DNA of 64,000 nt, from NCBI RefSeq assembly GCF_900166665.1, contig NZ_LT800494.1:3432061-3496060 (forward strand), written 5' to 3'. The first letter of the stretch is position 1; each line of letters starts with the position of its first letter. The notes under the pieces were generated by a model. That model saw nothing but the letters and a program-made list of their open reading frames with translations, was not told the DNA's origin and did not search any database. Shown here piece after piece: positions 51,782-60,572 of the stretch. The position numbers were made by a program, and so were the translations under genes. The DNA comes from Cytobacillus gottheilii. Its GTDB lineage: Bacteria; Bacillota; Bacilli; Bacillales; Cytobacillaceae.

Positions 51782-52882
51782 ATGTTCATTCTTATTATGC
51801 TTCTCTCTCTGCTGATTTACGGCGGGCTTGTTTATTATATCGGCTGGAGAGGGTATCGCTTGCTGCGTCCGGATACTTCCTCGCGGCGTTTTAAAACGAT
51901 TTATATTTTAGTCATCACGCTGGCAGCCACTTCATTTGTTCTGGGCCGTGTGTCCGGAATCACATTCTTAAATATTGCTGGCGCCTACTGGATGGCTTGT
52001 TTTTACCTGCTGATCTTACTGGTTCCTCTTGCCCATTTGACAGTCATTCTCTTGCGATTAACAAAGCTGCCGAGACGAAAGACGCAGGTATGGGCTGGAG
52101 TTATTACGCTTGGGTTAGTATTATCTCTATTAGGATATGGCGTTTTTAATACATACAGCCCTGTTGTTCGTACTTATGATATTACAATGGAAAAACGTTC
52201 TTCCACGCTCGATTCATTGCATATCGCAATGGCGGCAGATATGCACTTTGGTCTCCTGTCCGGCAGAAATCACGCTGAGCGTCTTGTAAAAGAGATGAAT
52301 AAACTAAAGCCAGATATTATTTTAATGCCTGGTGACCTTTTTGATGATGATGTTCAGCCATTTCTTGATCAGGAAATCAATCAAATCTTATCTGAGCTTG
52401 ATGCCCCATATGGCGTGTACGCCTCCCTTGGCAATCATGACAAGCATGAAGGAACGATGGATGAGCTGATACAAGCATTAGAGAATAGCGGTATCACAGT
52501 TCTGTATGATGAGACAGAAAACATTGAGGACCAGTTTTCGCTGATTGGACGCAAAGATTATTCAGATCCAGACAGACTGTCTTTAGACACACTTATGAAT
52601 GAAGTCGATTCTTCTAAACCTGTCATATTGCTGGAGCATCAGCCGTATGATCTAGACATCGCACAGCAGGAAGGTGTAGACCTAATGCTTTCTGGTCATA
52701 CCCATCGCGGACAAGTTTTCCCTGGCAGCCTCATAACGGCTTCCCTTTTCGAAAATGATTGGGGACATTTACAGAAGGAACAAATGCATTCTGTTGTTAC
52801 CTCAGGGTTTGGCTTCTGGGGACCGCCAATGCGGATTGGCACAAGATCTGAAATTGTCAGTATTCAGGTTCAGTTTCAATAA
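51782..52882 (+). CDS. Membrane metallophosphoesterase (YkuE-like)
   Basis: The 366-residue protein has four N-terminal helices (about 2-20, 37-57, 65-88 and 98-120) and a calcineurin-like phosphoesterase domain on the outer side. The metal motifs are complete: AADMHFG, MPGDLFDDD, LGNHDKHEG and SGHTHRGQ. Relatives such as YkuE and YpbG act on phospholipids or nucleotides. The ATG has AAAAGGAG 14 bases upstream, rather far; no better start is visible. Confidence 0.88.
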   Translation: MFILIMLLSLLIYGGLVYYIGWRGYRLLRPDTSSRRFKTIYILVITLAATSFVLGRVSGITFLNIAGAYWMACFYLLILLVPLAHLTVILLRLTKLPRRKTQVWAGVITLGLVLSLLGYGVFNTYSPVVRTYDITMEKRSSTLDSLHIAMAADMHFGLLSGRNHAERLVKEMNKLKPDIILMPGDLFDDDVQPFLDQEINQILSELDAPYGVYASLGNHDKHEGTMDELIQALENSGITVLYDETENIEDQFSLIGRKDYSDPDRLSLDTLMNEVDSSKPVILLEHQPYDLDIAQQEGVDLMLSGHTHRGQVFPGSLITASLFENDWGHLQKEQMHSVVTSGFGFWGPPMRIGTRSEIVSIQVQFQ

Positions 52883-52898
52883 TATAAACCGTTTGAAA

Positions 52899-53205
52899 GA
52901 GACTGAGACATAAGTATTTAACACACGCATAGAACCGAATGCTTAGGAAATCATCTTTCTAATCATTCGGTTTTTTATGATTATAAGATTTATTTTATTC
53001 ACTTGAGTGAAATGGAGCGGAGGACACTCGACTCCGGAGGGAAATAGAGGAAAAGGTGAGACCCCGCAGGCGTGCCGAGGAGGCTCAGCTTCCTCCCCTC
53101 GGAAAGCGAGAGTCCGCAGCGCAGGTGGAACGGACTTGTTTAAATACCCTTACCAAGATAATAAATATTCGTGTTTTAGAAATATTAATTTCGTTTTGTC
53201 CTCTT
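52899..53205. repeat. Composite MITE-like element, reverse copy, upstream of the van operon
   Basis: It starts GAGACTGAGACATAAG, followed by an ACCGAATG...CATTCGGT hairpin and CACTTGAGTGAAATGGAGCG, then the GC-rich core (53005-53130, with GGAGGACACTCGACTCC and AAGGTGAGACCCCGCAGG), and ends CGTGTTTTAGAAATATTAAT then TTTTGTCCTCTT. It is the reverse complement of 62384-62704 over its length. It fills most of the gap between the phosphoesterase and vanR. Confidence 0.9.
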
Positions 53206-53293
53206 TTTATTATAACAATTACTGCTCCCGCTTCTCATTCTCCTAAAAATGATTTAATCTATAGTAGTTCAGTAAGCAGTTTGAGGTGAAAAT

Positions 53294-53998
53294 ATGAACC
53301 CTATATTAATTGTAGACGATGAAAAAGAGATTGCCGATTTAGTAAAATTTTATTTAATAAATGAAGGCTATGATGTACATGTGTTTTATGAAGGAAAACC
53401 GGCACTTGAATTTATACAAAATCATGAGCTCGAGCTTGCGATTTTAGACGTGATGCTGCCGGATGTGGACGGGTTCTCAATCTGTCAGAAAATCCGAGAG
53501 AATCACCATTATCCCGTGATTATGCTAACAGCAAAAATTGAAGATATCGACAAAATCACCGGGCTGACATTAGGTGCTGATGACTACATAACAAAGCCTT
53601 TTAATCCGCTGGAAATGGTGGCTAGAGTAAAAGCACAGCTGCGCCGCTATAAACGCTATAATACAAATAACAGCAGCACCCCTGAGCCTGCAGCTGCTGC
53701 AAAGGAACATGATTTCTCTGGCTTAATCATTAATCAGGACACCCGTAAATGCACGCTCTATGGAAAACCACTTTCATTAACGCCGATCGAATTCTCGATT
53801 CTTTGGCATTTATGTGAAAACAAAGGCAAGGTGGTTTCCTCAGAGGAACTGTTTGAAGCCGTCTGGGGCGAGAAATATATTGATAATAACAATACTGTGA
53901 TGGCCCATATTGCCCGTTTACGGGAAAAAATGAAAGAGCCTTCAAGAAAGCCAAAGTTTATTAAAACGGTATGGGGGGTTGGCTATACCATTGAATAG
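53294..53998 (+). CDS. vanR: VanR-type response regulator
   Basis: The 234-residue OmpR-family regulator has acidic VDDE, phospho-acceptor in LAILDVMLPDVDG, K in YITKPF, and a winged helix with SSEELFEAVWGEKYIDNNNT and MAHIARLREKM, close in pattern to VanR proteins. The ATG follows TTTGAGGTG. It overlaps vanS. It likely binds the tandem CGTAAGAA boxes at 55079 to activate the resistance genes. Confidence 0.9.
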   Translation: MNPILIVDDEKEIADLVKFYLINEGYDVHVFYEGKPALEFIQNHELELAILDVMLPDVDGFSICQKIRENHHYPVIMLTAKIEDIDKITGLTLGADDYITKPFNPLEMVARVKAQLRRYKRYNTNNSSTPEPAAAAKEHDFSGLIINQDTRKCTLYGKPLSLTPIEFSILWHLCENKGKVVSSEELFEAVWGEKYIDNNNTVMAHIARLREKMKEPSRKPKFIKTVWGVGYTIE

Positions 53999-55094
53999 AG
54001 AAAGTGCTCCAAGCAGCGGATTAACTGGCAGGATGTTTATGAAATTTTTCTCTGCAATCTTTATTTTTTCAGTTGGTTTAATGACATTTATTATTGCAGG
54101 TTATTTTATCTATAGCAATTTTGTTTGGCAGCCAAATGATTTGTTCTATCTCCTGCTAAGTCCTGTTCGCAATAACCCCATTCCTTTTATTCTAATCACA
54201 TGGATGATCGGGATTGTCGGCATCTTTATGTATTTTTGGAGAAAAACGCTCAAGTACGTAGATCAGATTGTAGAAGCAAGCAGGCTGCTTGCTTCAGACA
54301 ATAGTGATTATATCCGTCTGCCATCTGAATTAAAGCAAGTGGAAGAACGAATGAATAGCACCAAGCAGGATTCGATCCGCAATGCCAGACTGGCAAAAGA
54401 AGCAGAACAGCGCAAAAATGACCTGCTTGTTTATCTGGCTCATGATTTGAAAACACCTCTAACTTCTGTCATCGGCTATTTAACACTGCTGCGGGATGAA
54501 CAGCAAATTTCAGAAGAGCTGCGGGAAAAATATCTATCGATTTCATTAGATAAAGCCGAACGACTTGAGGATTTAATTAATGAGTTCTTTGAAATCACCC
54601 GTTTCAATTTAACACAGCTAAGTCCTGAAATGAGTCTTATTAATCTGACTAGAATGCTGGAGCAGATTACTTTTGAATTTAATCCCCTACTTGCAGAAAA
54701 GAAGTTAACCTGCCAATTAGAGATTGAGGACAATCTGGAAATCTCCTGCGACGTTAATAAAATGGAACGTGTTTTTGATAACTTAATCCGCAATGCAATT
54801 AATTACAGCTATGAAAATAGCGCCATTATCATTCGTTCAGAAAAGGATCAGAACCATTTACACCTTCATTTTATAAACAAAGGTCCTGTCATTCCGAAAG
54901 ATAAGCTGGAGCGCATCTTTGAACAATTCTATCGATTGGACACGTCCCGCGGAACGAAATCAGGTGGAGCAGGACTTGGCCTTGCAATCGCCAAGGAAAT
55001 CGTTGAACTGCACGGCGGCACGATCTCTGCACAGAGTGAGAATGAAACGGTTGAATTTATCGTCACACTCCCTCTCACCGTAAGAAAATCGTAA
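53979..55094 (+). CDS. vanS: VanS-type sensor histidine kinase
   Basis: The 371-residue kinase has two membrane helices (about 22-48 and 67-87) with a short extracellular loop, HAMP-like linker, H-box VYLAHDLKTPLTSVIGYL, N-box NLIRNAINYS, and G-boxes EQFYRLDTSRG and GAGLGLAIAKE. This is the VanS layout with a small sensor loop, as in vanB/C/G types. The start codon is uncertain (TTG at 53979 or 53991, or an ATG near 54033), since the site is inside vanR. The stop codon lies inside the VanR-type operator. Confidence 0.9.
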   Translation: MAIPLNRESAPSSGLTGRMFMKFFSAIFIFSVGLMTFIIAGYFIYSNFVWQPNDLFYLLLSPVRNNPIPFILITWMIGIVGIFMYFWRKTLKYVDQIVEASRLLASDNSDYIRLPSELKQVEERMNSTKQDSIRNARLAKEAEQRKNDLLVYLAHDLKTPLTSVIGYLTLLRDEQQISEELREKYLSISLDKAERLEDLINEFFEITRFNLTQLSPEMSLINLTRMLEQITFEFNPLLAEKKLTCQLEIEDNLEISCDVNKMERVFDNLIRNAINYSYENSAIIIRSEKDQNHLHLHFINKGPVIPKDKLERIFEQFYRLDTSRGTKSGGAGLGLAIAKEIVELHGGTISAQSENETVEFIVTLPLTVRKS

Positions 55095-55119
55095 GAATTA
55101 CAGAAGAAAAACGTATTAT
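55079..55119 (+). promoter_or_regulatory. VanR-type tandem operator and promoter of the resistance genes
   Basis: CGTAAGAAAAT (55079-55089) and CGTAAGAATTA (55090-55100) are direct repeats 11 bp apart, matching the TCGTANGAAA-type VanR box recalled from enterococcal and actinobacterial van promoters. The second box takes the -35 position (GTAAGA, 55091-55096), then 17 bases and TATTAT at 55114-55119. The operator overlaps the vanS stop codon, so the resistance genes can be induced separately. Confidence 0.7.
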
Positions 55120-55143
55120 TTCCTTGAAAATAAACGAAAAAAT

Positions 55144-55196
55144 AACACTTTTTGTTTTAGTACGATTTATGTACAGAAACAAAAAGTGTTTTTTTA
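55144..55196 (+). terminator. Strong intrinsic terminator in the leader of the van ligase gene (putative attenuator)
   Basis: AACACTTTTTGTTT (55144-55157) and AAACAAAAAGTGTT (55177-55190) form a perfect 14-bp stem, with inner GTAC/GTAC pairs, followed by T5 from 55191. The ligase ribosome site AAGGAGG begins only six bases after the T-run, so no promoter fits between; every transcript of the ligase must pass this hairpin. Confidence 0.85.
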
Positions 55197-55216
55197 TTTA
55201 CAAGGAGGAATTTATT

Positions 55217-56269
55217 ATGGAAAAAATGATCGTTGCTGTTCTGTTTGGCGGCTGCTCGAATGAATATGAAGTATCTCTGCAATCTGCATACTCTGTCATT
55301 ACACATATGGATCCTGAAAAATATGAAGTCGTTTTAATTGGCATCACAAAGGAAGGGCGCTGGTACCGATATCACGGCCGTGCAGAAAACATCTTAAATG
55401 ATACATGGTATGCTGATGAAGCAAACTGTACGCCTGCGATCTTTTCGCCAAACCGCTATGAGAATCATTTATTGGAAGAGGCAAATGGACAAGTTGTCAA
55501 AACGATGATTGACCTAGTATTCCCAGTTTTACATGGTAAAAATGGCGAAGACGGAACACTGCAAGGATACTTAGAGCTAGCTGGAATTCCATACGTGGGC
55601 TGTAATACCTTATCTTCTGCCTTGTGCATGGATAAAGACCGCGCTCATAAATTAGCAGCACTCGAAGGGGTTCGCACCCCAGCTTCCGTAGTATTTTCAA
55701 AGTCTGGGTTAATAGAAGAAATCATTGCAGAAACTGATCAGCTGAAGCTGCCGCTTTTTGTTAAACCCGTTAAATCTGGCTCCTCCATCGGAATTACGCT
55801 TGTTAACGAAAGAGACGAACTGCCCAGTGCTGTTGCCGAAGCTTTTTCTCATGATGACCGTGTTATTATCGAAGAGTTTATTGATGGTTTTGAAGTTGGA
55901 TGTGCTATTTTAGGCAATGATGACCTCATTGTCGGTGAAGTGGACGAAATAGAGTTGGAAACTGGCTATTTTGATTTTAAAGAAAAATACAGTCTCACTA
56001 CTTCAAAGATTCATATGCCAGCCCGCATCGACGAAGATCTGAAAGCAAAAGTAAAGGATACAGGCATTAAAATCTATCATGCCCTTGGCTGCTCTGGTTT
56101 GGCACGGGTGGACATGTTTATTACCCCAAGTGGCGAGATTGTCTTCAATGAAGTGAACACTTTTCCAGGTTTCACAGATCACAGCCGTTATCCAAATATG
56201 ATGAAAGGCATTGGATTAACGTTTTCCGAAATCATTGATACGCTGATCCAATTGGGGCTTGAGCGATGA
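55217..56269 (+). CDS. D-alanine-D-serine ligase of VanC/E/G/L type
   Basis: The 350-residue ATP-grasp ligase starts MEKMIVAVLFGGCSNEYEVS with the D-Ala ligase signature, has HGKNGEDGTLQGYLE (residues 106-120), the omega-loop EKYS at 256-259 followed by SKIHMPARI, and the C-terminal FNEVNTFPGFTDHSRYP. The EKY-type loop and flanking sequence fit D-Ala-D-Ser ligases, not the D-Lac type. It joins D-Ala to D-Ser for vancomycin-resistant precursors. The ATG at 55217 follows AAGGAGG. It overlaps vanXY by ATGA. Confidence 0.88.
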   Translation: MEKMIVAVLFGGCSNEYEVSLQSAYSVITHMDPEKYEVVLIGITKEGRWYRYHGRAENILNDTWYADEANCTPAIFSPNRYENHLLEEANGQVVKTMIDLVFPVLHGKNGEDGTLQGYLELAGIPYVGCNTLSSALCMDKDRAHKLAALEGVRTPASVVFSKSGLIEEIIAETDQLKLPLFVKPVKSGSSIGITLVNERDELPSAVAEAFSHDDRVIIEEFIDGFEVGCAILGNDDLIVGEVDEIELETGYFDFKEKYSLTTSKIHMPARIDEDLKAKVKDTGIKIYHALGCSGLARVDMFITPSGEIVFNEVNTFPGFTDHSRYPNMMKGIGLTFSEIIDTLIQLGLER

Positions 56270-57033
56270 GAAACATTACGCTGCAGAAAGACGATATGTA
56301 TAAAGGCTATTTACTGCTCGTAAATCGCCATAACGGACTAAAACAAAGACAAGCCCAAGATTCACCAGCACTTGTGCCCTGTCTTGAAAACGTCGAATCT
56401 ATTTTACTCGAACGAAGGGCCGCTGCCTCATTAACTCAGCTTCTTGAAAAAGTAGAAGCACGGGGAAAAATTGTGCCAGTTAGCGGTTTTCGAAGCAAAG
56501 AAGAACAAGAACAATTATTCAAAGATTCTCTCATAAAAAATGGCAGAACCTTTACAGAGCAATATGTCGCCTATCCAGGCTGCAGCGAGCATGAGTCTGG
56601 TCTTGCCATTGATTTAGGAGAAAATACGGATGAAATTGATTTCATTCGTCCTTCTTTTCCATACACAGGCATCTTTGGTCAGTTTCGCAAACTGGCGGCA
56701 GACTACGGTTTTATTGAGCGCTATTCCAGCGGCAAAGAAGAGATAACAGGCATCTCACACGAACCTTGGCATTTCCGTTATATCGGATACCCGCACGCAA
56801 GAATTATGGATCATCACGATTTCTGTCTGGAAGAATACATTCAGTTTCTTTCCGATTTTCCGCAGGATAGCCAGCATTATACATTTAGTGAAAAGGGCAA
56901 AAACTTCGAGATATTTTTTGTAAGAGCAATAGATCAGGAGACGACCATTCAAATACCAGAGGATTGCTTATACCAAGTCTCCGGGAACAATGTGGACGGC
57001 TTTATCGTGACAGTTTGGAGAAATTCTTTATGA
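56266..57033 (+). CDS. vanXY: VanXY-type D,D-dipeptidase/carboxypeptidase
   Basis: The 255-residue enzyme has the M15B zinc-site motifs SEHESGLAID (S107, H109, D116) and EPWHFRY (E166, H169). It has no signal peptide or membrane anchor, as in VanXY, so it acts in the cytosol, cleaving D-Ala-D-Ala dipeptide and the terminal D-Ala of pentapeptide precursors. It overlaps the ligase start (ATGA) and the vanT start, showing translational coupling. Confidence 0.92.
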   Translation: MRNITLQKDDMYKGYLLLVNRHNGLKQRQAQDSPALVPCLENVESILLERRAAASLTQLLEKVEARGKIVPVSGFRSKEEQEQLFKDSLIKNGRTFTEQYVAYPGCSEHESGLAIDLGENTDEIDFIRPSFPYTGIFGQFRKLAADYGFIERYSSGKEEITGISHEPWHFRYIGYPHARIMDHHDFCLEEYIQFLSDFPQDSQHYTFSEKGKNFEIFFVRAIDQETTIQIPEDCLYQVSGNNVDGFIVTVWRNSL

Positions 57034-59144
57034 GTAAAACAGGGTCGCTTGATTCCTTTAGGTTAATAGCTGCTTTTCTTGTAATTGCTAACCATACATC
57101 ACCGCTTCTTTCTTATGGAGAGAATGGTGATTTTATTCTGACGCGGATTATTGCCAGAGTCGCAGTTCCCTTTTTTCTCATGGTCAGCGGGTACTTTCTC
57201 TATAAGTATATCGAAAATGGCGATAAGGCTTATATTCTTTCTTTCTGTAAAAAAATCGCCATATTATATGCTCTTTCCATTTTCCTGTACCTCCCGCTGA
57301 ATTTGTATGCCGGTCATTATGAGGCTGCAAATTGGGGGCAGGAATTGATTAAGGATATCATCTTTGATGGCACTTTTTATCATTTATGGTATTTCCCTGG
57401 ACTGATTTTAGGTGTGATGATTGTTGCTTTTCTAGTTCGTAAAATAGGACTAAAATTCACTTTTTTCATCTCTCTTATTCTTTATATTATAGGATTATTC
57501 GGTGACAGCTACTATGGAGTTACAGAGACGTTATCCAGTTTAGAAACATTTTATGATGTAGTCTTTACTCTATCAGACTATACAAGAAATGGCGTTTTTA
57601 TGGTGCCAATCTTTTTAATGCTGGGAATGCTGATTTATAAAGGGAATCATGTAATTCCTCTTCAGCGAAATCTTCTGTTTTTCATTATCTCTTTTTCTTT
57701 GCTGATACTTGAAGGACTGCTCCTGCATGCTTTTGAGCTTCAGCGGCATGACAGTATGTATATCATGCTCGTTCCAGCAATGTATTTTCTCTTTAGAAGC
57801 CTGCTGCAAATTCGGGGAAAAAGCAGTAAAGGTCTTCGTACTATTTCAACGATCATGTACATAATCCATCCTTGGATAATTGTGCTTGTCCGTTCTGCAG
57901 CAGAGATCTTTAAACTGGAAAATTGGTTTGTTGATAATAGCCTCCTGCACTTTGCAGCTGTCAGCTTTTTCACTTTTGCTGCAGCAAGACTAGCAACGAT
58001 TGTTTGGAAAAGGGAAAAAAATGCTAACCCGCCCCCTACTGGGAGAGCATGGGTAGAAATTGATCTACAGGCATTGAGGGAAAACGCAAGACAACTGATA
58101 AGAATACTCCCAGAGAAAACAAAACTAATGGCAGTGGTAAAAGCAAATGCCTACGGTCATGGGTCAGTAAAAATAGCAAAAGAATTATCGCAAACAGGAA
58201 TAAATTCATTTGCCGTTGCTACTTTAGCTGAAGCAATTGAGCTTCGGAGTAACGGCATTAAAGGTGATATTCTTATTTTAGGGTATACCCCCGCTCAATC
58301 TATTAGGATTATCAAGAAATATAACTTTACACAAACAGTGATTGGACTTGAGCATGCAAAGGAGTTAAACAGACAAGCTGTACCCATCAACATTCAGATC
58401 AAGATAGATACAGGGATGCATCGTTTGGGAACTGATGCTTCAGGGCTTGCAGATCTTAAAGAAATTTATCAGTGCAAACATTTAACGATAACAGGTGTTT
58501 TTTCGCATTTAGCAGTATCTGATAGCCTAGATCCAGATGATATAGCATTTACGAATAGACAAATAGATAGATACAATCAAACAATTCAATGGCTGGAATC
58601 ACAGCACCTTCCTGTTGGGCATCAGCATATTCAAGCTAGCTATGGCATCTTGAATTATCCTCATTTACAGTATGATTACGCTCGTGCAGGGATCACTCTT
58701 TATGGAGTCCTAAGCCAAAATGATAGGGTTAATACGAATGTTGAACTAAAACCCGTATTATCTATTAAAGCTAGAGTTGCAATGGTAAAGTCCTTGCACA
58801 CTGGGGAAGAGCTCGGCTATGGAAGATCCTTCACCGCAGCAAGCACAATGAAGACAGCAGTCATCACGATTGGCTATGCTGATGGTATTCCAAGAAATAT
58901 GGCAAACGGACATGTCCTAATTCGTTCGCAAAAAGCACCGATTATCGGCCGGATCTGCATGGATCAGCTCCTGGTGGATGTTTCAGGAATTGAAGGGGTA
59001 CAAGCAGACGATATTGCAACATTGATTGGCAAAGATGGATCACAGCAAATCACAGCAGAAGACGTTTCGGAGTCATGCGGGACAATCACGAATGAATTAT
59101 TGAGCAGACTTGGGGAGCGATTGGGGTATGTTTATAAAATATAA
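57030..59144 (+). CDS. vanT: VanT-type membrane serine racemase
   Basis: The 704-residue fusion matches the usual VanT length. The first 335 residues form a ten-helix acyltransferase-3-like membrane domain (SLDSFRLIAAFLVIANHTSP, later MVSGYFLYKY). Then a PLP-dependent alanine racemase-like domain has K371 in AVVKANAYGHG and Y597 in LGYGRS, with GYADGIPR and the terminal RLGERLGYVYKI. It converts L-Ser to D-Ser. The ATG at 57030 overlaps the vanXY stop and has TTTGGAG upstream. It is the last gene of the operon. Confidence 0.93.
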   Translation: MSKTGSLDSFRLIAAFLVIANHTSPLLSYGENGDFILTRIIARVAVPFFLMVSGYFLYKYIENGDKAYILSFCKKIAILYALSIFLYLPLNLYAGHYEAANWGQELIKDIIFDGTFYHLWYFPGLILGVMIVAFLVRKIGLKFTFFISLILYIIGLFGDSYYGVTETLSSLETFYDVVFTLSDYTRNGVFMVPIFLMLGMLIYKGNHVIPLQRNLLFFIISFSLLILEGLLLHAFELQRHDSMYIMLVPAMYFLFRSLLQIRGKSSKGLRTISTIMYIIHPWIIVLVRSAAEIFKLENWFVDNSLLHFAAVSFFTFAAARLATIVWKREKNANPPPTGRAWVEIDLQALRENARQLIRILPEKTKLMAVVKANAYGHGSVKIAKELSQTGINSFAVATLAEAIELRSNGIKGDILILGYTPAQSIRIIKKYNFTQTVIGLEHAKELNRQAVPINIQIKIDTGMHRLGTDASGLADLKEIYQCKHLTITGVFSHLAVSDSLDPDDIAFTNRQIDRYNQTIQWLESQHLPVGHQHIQASYGILNYPHLQYDYARAGITLYGVLSQNDRVNTNVELKPVLSIKARVAMVKSLHTGEELGYGRSFTAASTMKTAVITIGYADGIPRNMANGHVLIRSQKAPIIGRICMDQLLVDVSGIEGVQADDIATLIGKDGSQQITAEDVSESCGTITNELLSRLGERLGYVYKI

Positions 59145-59203
59145 TTTAGTAGCAGTCTGTACTTTATAATATTAGATAAGACTAAATTGATAACCTTAAA
59201 TCA

Positions 59204-59410
59204 AACAAGCCCGTTTCACCTGAGCTACGGACCCTCGCTTTCCGTGGGGAGGAAGCTGAGCCTCCTCGTCGCGGGACGCTCCTGCGGGGTCTCACCTTTC
59301 CTCTATTGCCCACAGGAGTCGAGTGTCCTCCGCTCCATTTCACTCAAATATTCAAAGATATTTTTAATGTAATATAACAAAAAGATTCATTTCTTAACCA
59401 TTCGGATATA
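59204..59410. repeat. Partial composite MITE-like element downstream of the van operon
   Basis: The GC-rich core (59220-59345: CCCTCGCTTTCCG, GGAGGAAGCTGAGCCTCCTC, GCGGGGTCTCACC, GGAGTCGAGTGTCCTCCGC) and CATTTCACTC, followed by the AAAGATTC...CCATTCGG part, are preserved. The outer terminal repeats have been lost. It has the same orientation as 62384-62704 and is opposite to 52899-53205, so the van operon is bracketed by inverted copies. Confidence 0.85.
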
Positions 59411-59525
59411 ATGTTTGATTAAACATCCCTGTCCACACCTCTTGGGAATTTAAAGAGTGTGTCATATGCTCAATACCGGATAAATGATCAACAATAACTT
59501 CTAATATTCTGTTTTTCTCGCGCAT
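59394..59525 (-). CDS. Small ORF at the end of the PadR/HAAS operon
   Basis: The 43-residue ORF starts MREKNRILEVIVDHLSGIEH and ends TLYPNG. AAAGGGA lies five bases before the ATG. It follows the HAAS gene by 45 bases on the same strand, and its last codons lie in the CATTCGG part of a MITE-like fragment. It may be a truncated gene whose 3' end was replaced by the element. No family recognised. Confidence 0.4.
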   Translation of the reverse strand: MREKNRILEVIVDHLSGIEHMTHSLNSQEVWTGMFNQTLYPNG

Positions 59526-59570
59526 TACATTCCCTTTAATGAAGAAAATAAGAGGGAACATCCCCCCCTC

Positions 59571-60572
59571 TTACTTAATCCTCGCTTTCCGAAATCCATC
59601 AACAATGCTGATGACAGCAAATACCAGAACGACCAGGAATGTAACACTGATAAAACCAACCTGCAGCTGTGAACTGGATGCAGAAAACAAAGCAGCGAAA
59701 TAATTAAAGAACTCCTCCTGCAAAAGGTTTGGATTAATAAATAGAATCAAGAGGACAATTACTCCTGCTGCTTCGACAATTAAATTTAAAATCGCCAACC
59801 TCTTCGTCCATTGTCCTTTTACATATTTATAGATTGCCAATGCTACTTCAAGTGCCAAAATAGTAACTACGATCGGCCAATATCCAATGAGTACGTCTTG
59901 ATGAAAGACTGGCTGCACAAACTCAAGACCATTTCCCTTGTCTTCATACAGTCCAATTAAGTGATTCGCATTAAAATAGAAGCTGATCCAAATCGCACTC
60001 CATATAAAACTGCCAAAAATCTCACTCTTTGAGACTGCTTTTTTCTTTGGAACATATGTGATTTGCTTTAGAACTTCCGGGGTCCATTTAGTCAAACTGT
60101 TCGTTACCGGGTCTGTACCTTTATTGGTGTCTGTTCGTTCAATGACTGCAAAAACAATCGTTATCCAGAAAAGGACTCCAACACCAACTTCTACTAACGT
60201 TATAATTCCCTTTGTGATCAGAGTTGTGATGAAATTGATGAAATCTTCCTCACCATTATATTGAATAAAATAAGAGGCAACCATTGTGATAAACGATACA
60301 ACAACTGCGATTGGAAGAATCATTTTCAATAGTGAAATATAGAGGTCATAATACCGTGGACCAATTAAATGCATAGGCTGATCCCGATAACCTCCCGCCA
60401 ATGCTACTGGATTTCCCAGTTTTTCAAGAACTGACTTTACGTCCGCTTCGTTATGCTCATCAGGCAGCATATCCTCAATTGTCGACCGAAGTTCTAATGC
60501 AATGTCACTGCGATTTTTTTCCGGTAATCTTCTTGTGACTTCCTGGATGTAAATCTCAATCAGATTTTGCAT
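59571..60572 (-). CDS. HAAS-domain integral membrane protein
   Basis: The 333-residue protein starts with a HAAS signalling domain of about 75 residues (YIQEVTRRLPEKNRSDIALE and VLEKLGNPVALAGGYRDQP), then seven or eight membrane helices. HAAS proteins are nearly always paired with a PadR-like regulator, which here overlaps by 17 bases upstream. The pair probably senses a membrane-active compound; the ligand is unknown. Confidence 0.82.
   Translation of the reverse strand: MQNLIEIYIQEVTRRLPEKNRSDIALELRSTIEDMLPDEHNEADVKSVLEKLGNPVALAGGYRDQPMHLIGPRYYDLYISLLKMILPIAVVVSFITMVASYFIQYNGEEDFINFITTLITKGIITLVEVGVGVLFWITIVFAVIERTDTNKGTDPVTNSLTKWTPEVLKQITYVPKKKAVSKSEIFGSFIWSAIWISFYFNANHLIGLYEDKGNGLEFVQPVFHQDVLIGYWPIVVTILALEVALAIYKYVKGQWTKRLAILNLIVEAAGVIVLLILFINPNLLQEEFFNYFAALFSASSSQLQVGFISVTFLVVLVFAVISIVDGFRKARIK

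Follow-up and report, generated by a model that had tools for sequence, protein, structure and literature searches.

A 64,000-nucleotide (nt) stretch of the Cytobacillus gottheilii genome (assembly GCF_900166665.1, contig NZ_LT800494.1, positions 3,432,061 to 3,496,060), called the window below, carries what appears to be an intact vanG-type and probably inducible glycopeptide-resistance operon, apparently with its promoter inside the terminator of vanRS, that is spreading among Bacillales; we put the probability of this reading at about 85%. Genes for VanR, VanS, a D-Ala:D-Ser-type ligase, VanXY and VanT lie on the + strand with unbroken frames (window 53294-59144; Table 1), and their coordinates, strand and profile matches agree with the five same-direction genes of the original prediction. 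Van types take their name from the ligase (PMC8541618), and judged by its ligase sequence the block is vanG-type. Because the contig makes up 4.71 Mb of a 4.78-Mb genome that has an intact spo0A, the location is fairly described as the chromosome of a spore former, as had been proposed.

The residues expected of such a system are in place. The omega loop of the ligase, YFDFKEKYSL, was aligned with those of the structure 4fu0, VanC1, VanA, VanB, a VanA-like ligase of the same family, a Sporolactobacillus ligase and the Ddl of the host; it resembles FFDYTEKYTL of 4fu0 and FFDFEEKYQL of VanC1, and is unlike both RIHQE of VanA and VanB and FYDYKAKY of the host Ddl. A second ligase motif, FTDHSRYP, also resembles 4fu0 and VanC1. 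We take the omega-loop residues to be signs of D-Ser specificity. VanXY retains its motifs SGFRS, SEHESGLAIDLG and GISHEPWHFRYIG, and VanT retains K371 (the pyridoxal phosphate, PLP, lysine), Y597 and N688; EKYS, the M15B residues of VanXY and K371 had all been named in the original prediction. The Asn at position 688 is found in 13 of 16 aligned VanT rows, the window counted, the remaining three (L008, L009, L026; L and G numbers denote loci and genomes of the comparison) being shortened or broken with no residue at this position. In five of five alanine racemases (G000, the host, and G010, G184, G307 and G418) the position is Tyr, and Asn in its place is presumably the serine-racemase residue. 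The best PDB match of VanT is 4ecl; we take 4fu0, 4f78 and 4ecl to be VanG, VanXYG and VanTG. A longer vanT reading frame of 726 amino acids (aa) from a TTG at 56964 is possible, and the numbering of K371 fits the 704-aa protein.

The close packing of the genes was borne out at three overlaps (vanR/vanS 20 nt, ligase/vanXY 4 nt, vanXY/vanT 4 nt), but not between vanS and the ligase gene, which are 122 base pairs (bp) apart; this gap houses the predicted resistance promoter. Profile scans of the open reading frames in 53294-59144 revealed no vanH, vanX, vanU, vanY or vanW, in line with the original statement that vanH, vanX and a vanA-type ligase are lacking; for vanU, vanY and vanW the view extends over the block and the DNA just upstream of it, the remainder of the genome not having been searched for them. 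The host encodes its own Ddl in a separate gene (C4:4362848, 38% identity to the window ligase) and its own Alr (32% identity), and the van block is therefore an addition to normal wall synthesis. All five genes are under purifying selection: the ratio of nonsynonymous to synonymous substitution rates (dN/dS) is 0.05-0.22 between the host and G010, and 0.02-0.12 between the host and G418, where dS is saturated.

The control region lies at the junction of vanS and the ligase gene. The VanRG box of Enterococcus faecalis has the consensus (T/C)CGTANGAAA(T/A)T (PMC4405338), and VanR boxes are likewise present upstream of the resistance genes of the window, one exact and one with ten of twelve matches; the exact box is the sole exact match in 64 kb, where 0.15 would be expected. 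Counted from where each of the two boxes begins, the -10 hexamer of the predicted promoter lies at 83 and 72 bp, distances that recur in relatives, and a transcript is predicted to start near 55173. In E. faecalis the promoter PYG has been mapped (-35 AAAACA, 16 bp, -10 TACAAT), and VanRG protects -100 to -56 (PMC4405338); the window boxes would fall at about -95 to -73 from the predicted start, within the range of that footprint. Two of the compared loci, L076 and L012, have both hexamers and the spacer identical to PYG. Because the hexamers, the 16-bp spacer and the position of the boxes relative to the footprint are like those of PYG, the window promoter is very likely its homologue. The same DNA forms a terminator-like hairpin of -19.1 kcal/mol (z -6.3), a stability reached by 0 of 200 shuffles, whereas RNA beginning near 55173 is predicted to form no stable hairpin (-2.7 kcal/mol). 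We infer from this arrangement that a terminator gates the PYG-like promoter.

Table 1. Coordinates of the van genes, control elements and repeats (window numbering unless a locus is named)
Feature	Position	Strand	Details
vanR, OmpR/PhoB-class response regulator	53294-53998	+	234 aa; NF033117 (VanR_ACDEGLN) 399 bits, cut-off 350; Pfam Response_reg and Trans_reg_C
vanS, sensor histidine kinase	53979-55094	+	371 aa, TTG start; NF033091 407 bits, cut-off 400; HisKA and HATPase_c
vanG-type D-Ala:D-Ser ligase	55217-56269	+	350 aa; NF000091 VanG 564 bits, cut-off 495; best PDB match 4fu0
vanXY, D,D-dipeptidase/carboxypeptidase	56266-57033	+	255 aa; no signal peptide by eye; best PDB match 4f78, E 9.9e-84
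vanT, membrane acyltransferase-like and PLP racemase domains	57030-59144	+	704 aa, ATG start; NF033131 (vanT-G-Cterm) 544 bits, cut-off 460; Acyl_transf_3 and Ala_racemase N/C
Two VanR boxes, 11 bp apart	55078-55089 and 55089-55100	+	12/12 and 10/12 to YCGTANGAAAWT (consensus from PMC4405338); boxes also in relatives
Predicted VanR-dependent promoter	55139-55166	+	-35 AAAATA 55139-55144, 16-bp spacer, -10 TACGAT 55161-55166
Terminator-like hairpin	55144-55190	+	19 pairs, 7-nt loop, T-run after; -10 straddles loop
Dispersed genome repeat, left flank, outside operon	53003-53141	+	139 bp; at least 40 genome places
Dispersed genome repeat, right flank, inverted, outside operon	59203-59347	-	87% to left copy
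Direct repeats of G418	L115 3728-6317 and L115 12436-15025		each with IS91-type Y2 transposase and tyrosine integrase; composite-element layout

This layout is conserved among relatives. The comparison covers 27 upstream regions. Besides that of the window, these are the regions of 25 loci, duplicates removed, in which a same-strand vanS match lies under 700 bp upstream, and that of L009, which was included although it has no adjoining vanRS of its own; by their loops the ligases of L054 and L114 are not of the D-Ser kind. When -10-like hexamers are measured from the first base of VanR boxes with at least ten of twelve matches, two distances dominate, 83 bp in 14 regions and 72 bp in 13, and no other occurs more than four times. 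In a strict test the 72/83-bp spacing was found in 16 of the 27 regions, against a mean of 1.1 and a maximum of 5 in 1000 shuffles of the sequence below the boxes. Each of the 16 has its hexamer at a hairpin loop, the stems counting 15-27 pairs; these regions are not independent, ten belonging to the Bacillales clade (about five distinct sequences) and six to Clostridia (L012, L022, L041, L045, L047, L055). A separate scan found a -10-like hexamer near the loop in 19 of 25 hairpins with T-runs in the 27-region set, compared with 93 of 546 (17%) elsewhere, in a sample made up of the opening 30 kb of the window plus L115, L111, L116 and L117. Five of the 19 stem pairs have changed on both sides with pairing kept among eight distinct Bacillales rows (2.1 expected; 0 of 500 shuffles reach five), figures that are weakened by the relatedness of the rows. 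Among the D-Ala-D-Lac systems, a hairpin between vanS and the next gene occurs in vanA and vanB and none was found in vanM, and vanB and vanM did not show the layout of box, -10 and loop. On the vanA plasmid CP131028.1 (L166 2826-3039) the loop of the vanS-vanH hairpin carries a -10-like TAGACT, which a distance of 83 bp separates from a VanR box of 10/12.

In the proposed mechanism, VanS would sense glycopeptide-type wall damage and phosphorylate VanR, which would bind the two boxes at the end of vanS and fire the promoter before the ligase gene. VanT would make D-serine, the ligase would join D-Ala to D-Ser, and VanXY would remove D-Ala-D-Ala and the last D-Ala of normal precursors; precursors would then end in D-Ala-D-Ser and bind vancomycin more weakly, with low to moderate resistance expected, while the host Ddl and Alr would serve normal growth. 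Read-through RNA from vanRS would carry the entire hairpin and stop, whereas VanR-driven RNA would start inside the hairpin, lack its 5' arm and continue into the ligase gene. That a VanR promoter in the loop of the vanRS terminator acts as a one-way gate throughout the vanG family of Bacillales and Clostridia is a proposal that we hold at somewhat better than even odds.

Several results count against this interpretation of the genes and their control. On curated NCBIfam models, VanXY falls below the cut-offs (vanXY_G 288 of 500 bits, vanXY 221 of 250 bits), as do the ligase on the generic D-Ala-D-Ser ligase model (394 bits, cut-off 520) and VanT on the vanT-CELN model (677 bits, cut-off 900). 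No VanR box of 10/12 or better was found upstream of vanR, and generic scans for sigma-70 promoters and terminators list neither the promoter nor the hairpin. Eleven of the 27 regions fail the strict test: L014, L036 and L076 stay in the 11-bp register at 50 or 61 bp, a loop hexamer without a 10/12 box is seen in L011 and L020, and L021, L024, L026, L032, L054 and L114 have neither feature. Hexamers of the -10 type at other spacings also fall at hairpin loops (23 of 64 cases), in part within regions whose only failing is the strict spacing. Covariation by further pair types is no better than in shuffles (129 of 500), and the hairpins of the G+C-rich clostridial loci L036, L041, L047 and L055 have poor T-runs. 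To these is added the behaviour of a described system with these five genes, the vanGCd cluster of Clostridium difficile.

The order R-S-G-XY-T on one strand recurs in 19 of 98 other loci compared (L006, L011, L014, L020, L022, L024, L026, L041, L045, L047, L055, L076, L111, L112, L113, L115, L116, L117, L118), a set from which the window locus and 23 short loci, mostly duplicates, were left out and of which many members are Ddl-like. The original prediction had stressed that this order differs from that of vanC (C-XY-T-R-S), which it does, but the order is otherwise unremarkable, being that of vanG, vanGCd and these 19 loci. The vanG operon of E. faecalis reads vanURS and then YWG-XY-T (PMC4405338), and the C. 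difficile cluster reads vanRSG#T, where # is a metallopeptidase (PMC11273654). The C. difficile cluster is chromosomal, its vanR and vanS are thought to lie on one mRNA, and it is reported to be functional yet not associated with resistance, mutations in vanR or vanS raising the minimal inhibitory concentration of vancomycin (PMC10269549, PMC11326576, PMC11273654). By description rather than by sequence, it has the same five genes as the window block, and its host group differs. Since vanGCd is described as functional but not linked to resistance, the window operon could likewise be intact but silent, or serve another use, with a susceptible host and D-Ser precursors in unusual states only. 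The lack of a visible vanY or vanW in the block would suit this alternative, but purifying selection on the five genes and the conserved control region imply use; we consider silence unlikely, though it is the most serious competitor of an inducible resistance operon.

Other known systems are more distant in one respect or another. The vanG operon of E. faecalis BM4518 is alike in the best PDB matches of the ligase, VanXY and VanT, in the regulators standing first, and in the VanRG box consensus, the type of promoter hexamers, the 16-bp spacer and the footprint position (PMC4405338); it differs in having vanU, vanY and vanW, and the two ligases belong to separate clades (approximately unbiased, AU, test, p 3e-5). 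Enterococcus gallinarum vanC1 (NZ_CP116511.1) shares the same five functions and an EKY omega loop, whereas its order is C-XY-T-R-S and its VanC1 branch is long and unplaced. A VanC-type operon was ruled out by the gene order and by a ligase score of 335 bits against a cut-off of 650 on the VanC model, and the ligase is also below the cut-offs of the VanE (314 bits), VanN (307) and VanL (305) models. The vanA, vanB and vanM operons have control by VanRS in common with the block and differ by a D-Lac ligase with an IHQE-type loop, vanH and vanX; an operon of the VanA/B D-Ala-D-Lac type was ruled out by the absence of an IHQE loop and of any vanH or vanX seen in the block.

Two other functions may be considered for the inverted repeat. 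It could work at the DNA level, as the operator of a repressor over the promoter, instead of folding as RNA, as suggested by VanUG of E. faecalis, which covers PYG from -110 to -3 and binds inverted repeats in PUG (PMC4405338), and by the poor T-runs of the G+C-rich loci. However, no vanU is seen in the window block, and the long arms vary between lineages; because the arm sequences differ while pairing is kept, an RNA stem fits better than a fixed operator, which we regard as improbable. Slightly less probable still is a leader attenuator in the ligase mRNA, with transcription starting before the hairpin, for example from TATTAT at 55114-55119. In the window, L006 and L115 this hexamer and the beginning of the exact box are 36 bp apart, and the hairpin and its T-run precede the ribosome site, but TATTAT is not kept in L111, L113, L117 or L009, and Rfam has no match in 52800-59600 up to E 0.1. 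The loop hexamer, in contrast, holds its 72/83-bp spacing in Bacillales and Clostridia, in agreement with PYG as mapped in E. faecalis, which favours a promoter within the terminator.

Phylogeny places the operon in a clade of its own. Ligase trees were built from 83 chosen rows (after removal of duplicates, of truncated sequences and of the majority of the far Ddl-like ones) and, with greater care, from 42 rows; VanE, VanL, VanN and VanD sequences are not among them. The possibility that housekeeping D-Ala-D-Ala ligase genes were mistaken for a resistance cluster can be dismissed: the ligase and racemase do score above the cut-offs of general Ddl and alanine-racemase models, which is normal for members of these superfamilies, but the ligase is separate from the host Ddl in the trees, exceeds the VanG cut-off and has D-Ser residues, and the grouping with the housekeeping enzyme of the same genome that would have undone the original prediction was not found. 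In the 42-row tree the window ligase joins that of G010 and then that of G418 (100/94), and ten Bacillales rows, Gracilibacillus among them, form a single clade (96/95). The 4fu0 ligase has as its companions five clostridial rows, Lachnospiraceae included (97/98), and forcing it into the Bacillales clade costs 83.5 log units and is rejected (AU p 3.2e-5). VanC1 has a very long branch, and its placement with the Bacillales group is neither supported nor rejected (p 0.31). By these trees the window operon is not the parent of enterococcal VanG, and the suggestion that it might be a reservoir or ancestor of enterococcal types fails for VanG and, for VanC1, is neither supported nor rejected.

The ligase and RpoB trees conflict, which points to horizontal movement between Bacillales families (family assignments follow the codes of the genome set). 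Grouping the window and G010 together with the same-family carriers G183 and G184 is rejected for the ligase (p 0.0016). In the RpoB tree of 22 genomes, the host and G010 group with G033 and G023, members of the genus that lack the operon, and the clade of host, G010 and G418 taken from the ligase tree is rejected (p 0.001); deeper branches are weak, and the tree neither recovers a single clade for the host family nor rejects one (p 0.11). G418 is the closest carrier found outside the host genus, and its van block is bracketed by two 2590-bp direct repeats that are 99.8% identical. The IS91-type transposase occurs in G418 in four identical copies, and G000, G010, G184, G307, G381 and G565 contain nothing that matches it at 1e-30. 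DNA homology between G418 and the window spans window 53227-59136, which takes in the five genes together with 67 bp ahead of vanR. We read these data as a five-gene cassette of about 5.9 kb that probably spreads horizontally among Bacillales.

Within the host genus, the ligase is present in two of 36 genomes (E up to 1e-90), the host and G010, whose ligases are 96% identical. Both have the operon at a common site, where aligned stretches in and around it are 91-94% identical and one is 82%; the same block at the same site, which the original prediction had proposed to look for in related genomes, was thus found, but only in these two carriers. The left neighbour, a metallophosphoesterase by eye, occurs in three of the 36 genomes and the right neighbour, DUF1700-like by eye, in 31. 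No clean empty insertion site was found; five stretches (two in G023 and one each in G033, G009 and G024) have one neighbour without van genes or the other neighbour beside it. The flanking inverted 139-bp repeats were rejected as ends of a mobile element and are considered background, because they occur in at least 40 genome places (40 of 261 candidate places were scored) and the right copy is missing from the 19-kb stretch covered in G010. An IS3-like insertion, accompanied by a 5-bp duplication, interrupts the left copy of G010 (L006 4521-6115), and a Fic/DOC-family gene lies between vanT and the right neighbour (L006 12485-13114), where the window has about 430 bp.

Beyond the genus, family-level ligase matches occur in five of 193 genomes at 1e-85, one of them (G066) of the VanA-like D-Lac type, and in the order-level sample 12 of 397 genomes have a ligase at 1e-100; the four of these that come from family f15 are not of the D-Ser kind, because their loops are RIHQE or HIHQD. 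Among the best 80 ligase matches listed, named carriers with an EKY loop and vanXY adjoining the ligase gene include Gracilibacillus timonensis, Ruminiclostridium cellobioparum, several Paenibacillus and Bacillus sp. AFS041924. Viral contigs yielded one distant ligase match (35% identity). The VanT matches of G. timonensis (L009 8801-13931) fall in overlapping pieces, as if frameshifted, with only distant response-regulator and kinase genes nearby, on the opposite strand; VanR boxes and hairpin are still present. A plasmid of Paenibacillus amylolyticus (pY5S7-1, L004 5021-8053) carries a D-Ser-type set in the order racemase-XY-ligase, the racemase being annotated as alanine racemase. G066, of the host's family, has vanR, vanS and a VanA/B-like D-Lac-type ligase with an IHQE loop (L114 7161-10503) that branches outside VanA/B/M, with a vanS-ligase gap of 507 bp. 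Six loci of Sporolactobacillus and of family f15 (L038, L043, L108, L110, L121, L122) encode ligases that the tree puts close to VanA/B/M. Those whose loops are shown have the RIHQE or HIHQD type, and no vanXY or vanT match adjoins any of the six; the ligases are possibly native D-Ala-D-Lac enzymes.

In open-licence PubMed Central literature we found no account of D-Ala-D-Ser operons in this Bacillales group or of a hairpin promoter; subscription papers, such as the 2003 paper on the vanG operon, were outside this scope, and no priority is claimed. The comparisons suggest that the operon is ordinary as a kind and well preserved, and that its new element is the regulatory layout. If true, the gate would account for an off-state that is tight even though no repressor takes part, and the conserved hairpin promoter would offer a testable model for the silence of vanG-type operons, with a bearing on the vanR and vanS mutations that de-repress the cluster of C. 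difficile. The operon looks like a horizontally moving cousin of hospital vanG rather than its source, and it would add to the known distribution of vanG-type operons a set of moving five-gene cassettes in Bacillales, apart from the clinical vanG lineage, that may serve as a defined clade for resistance databases.

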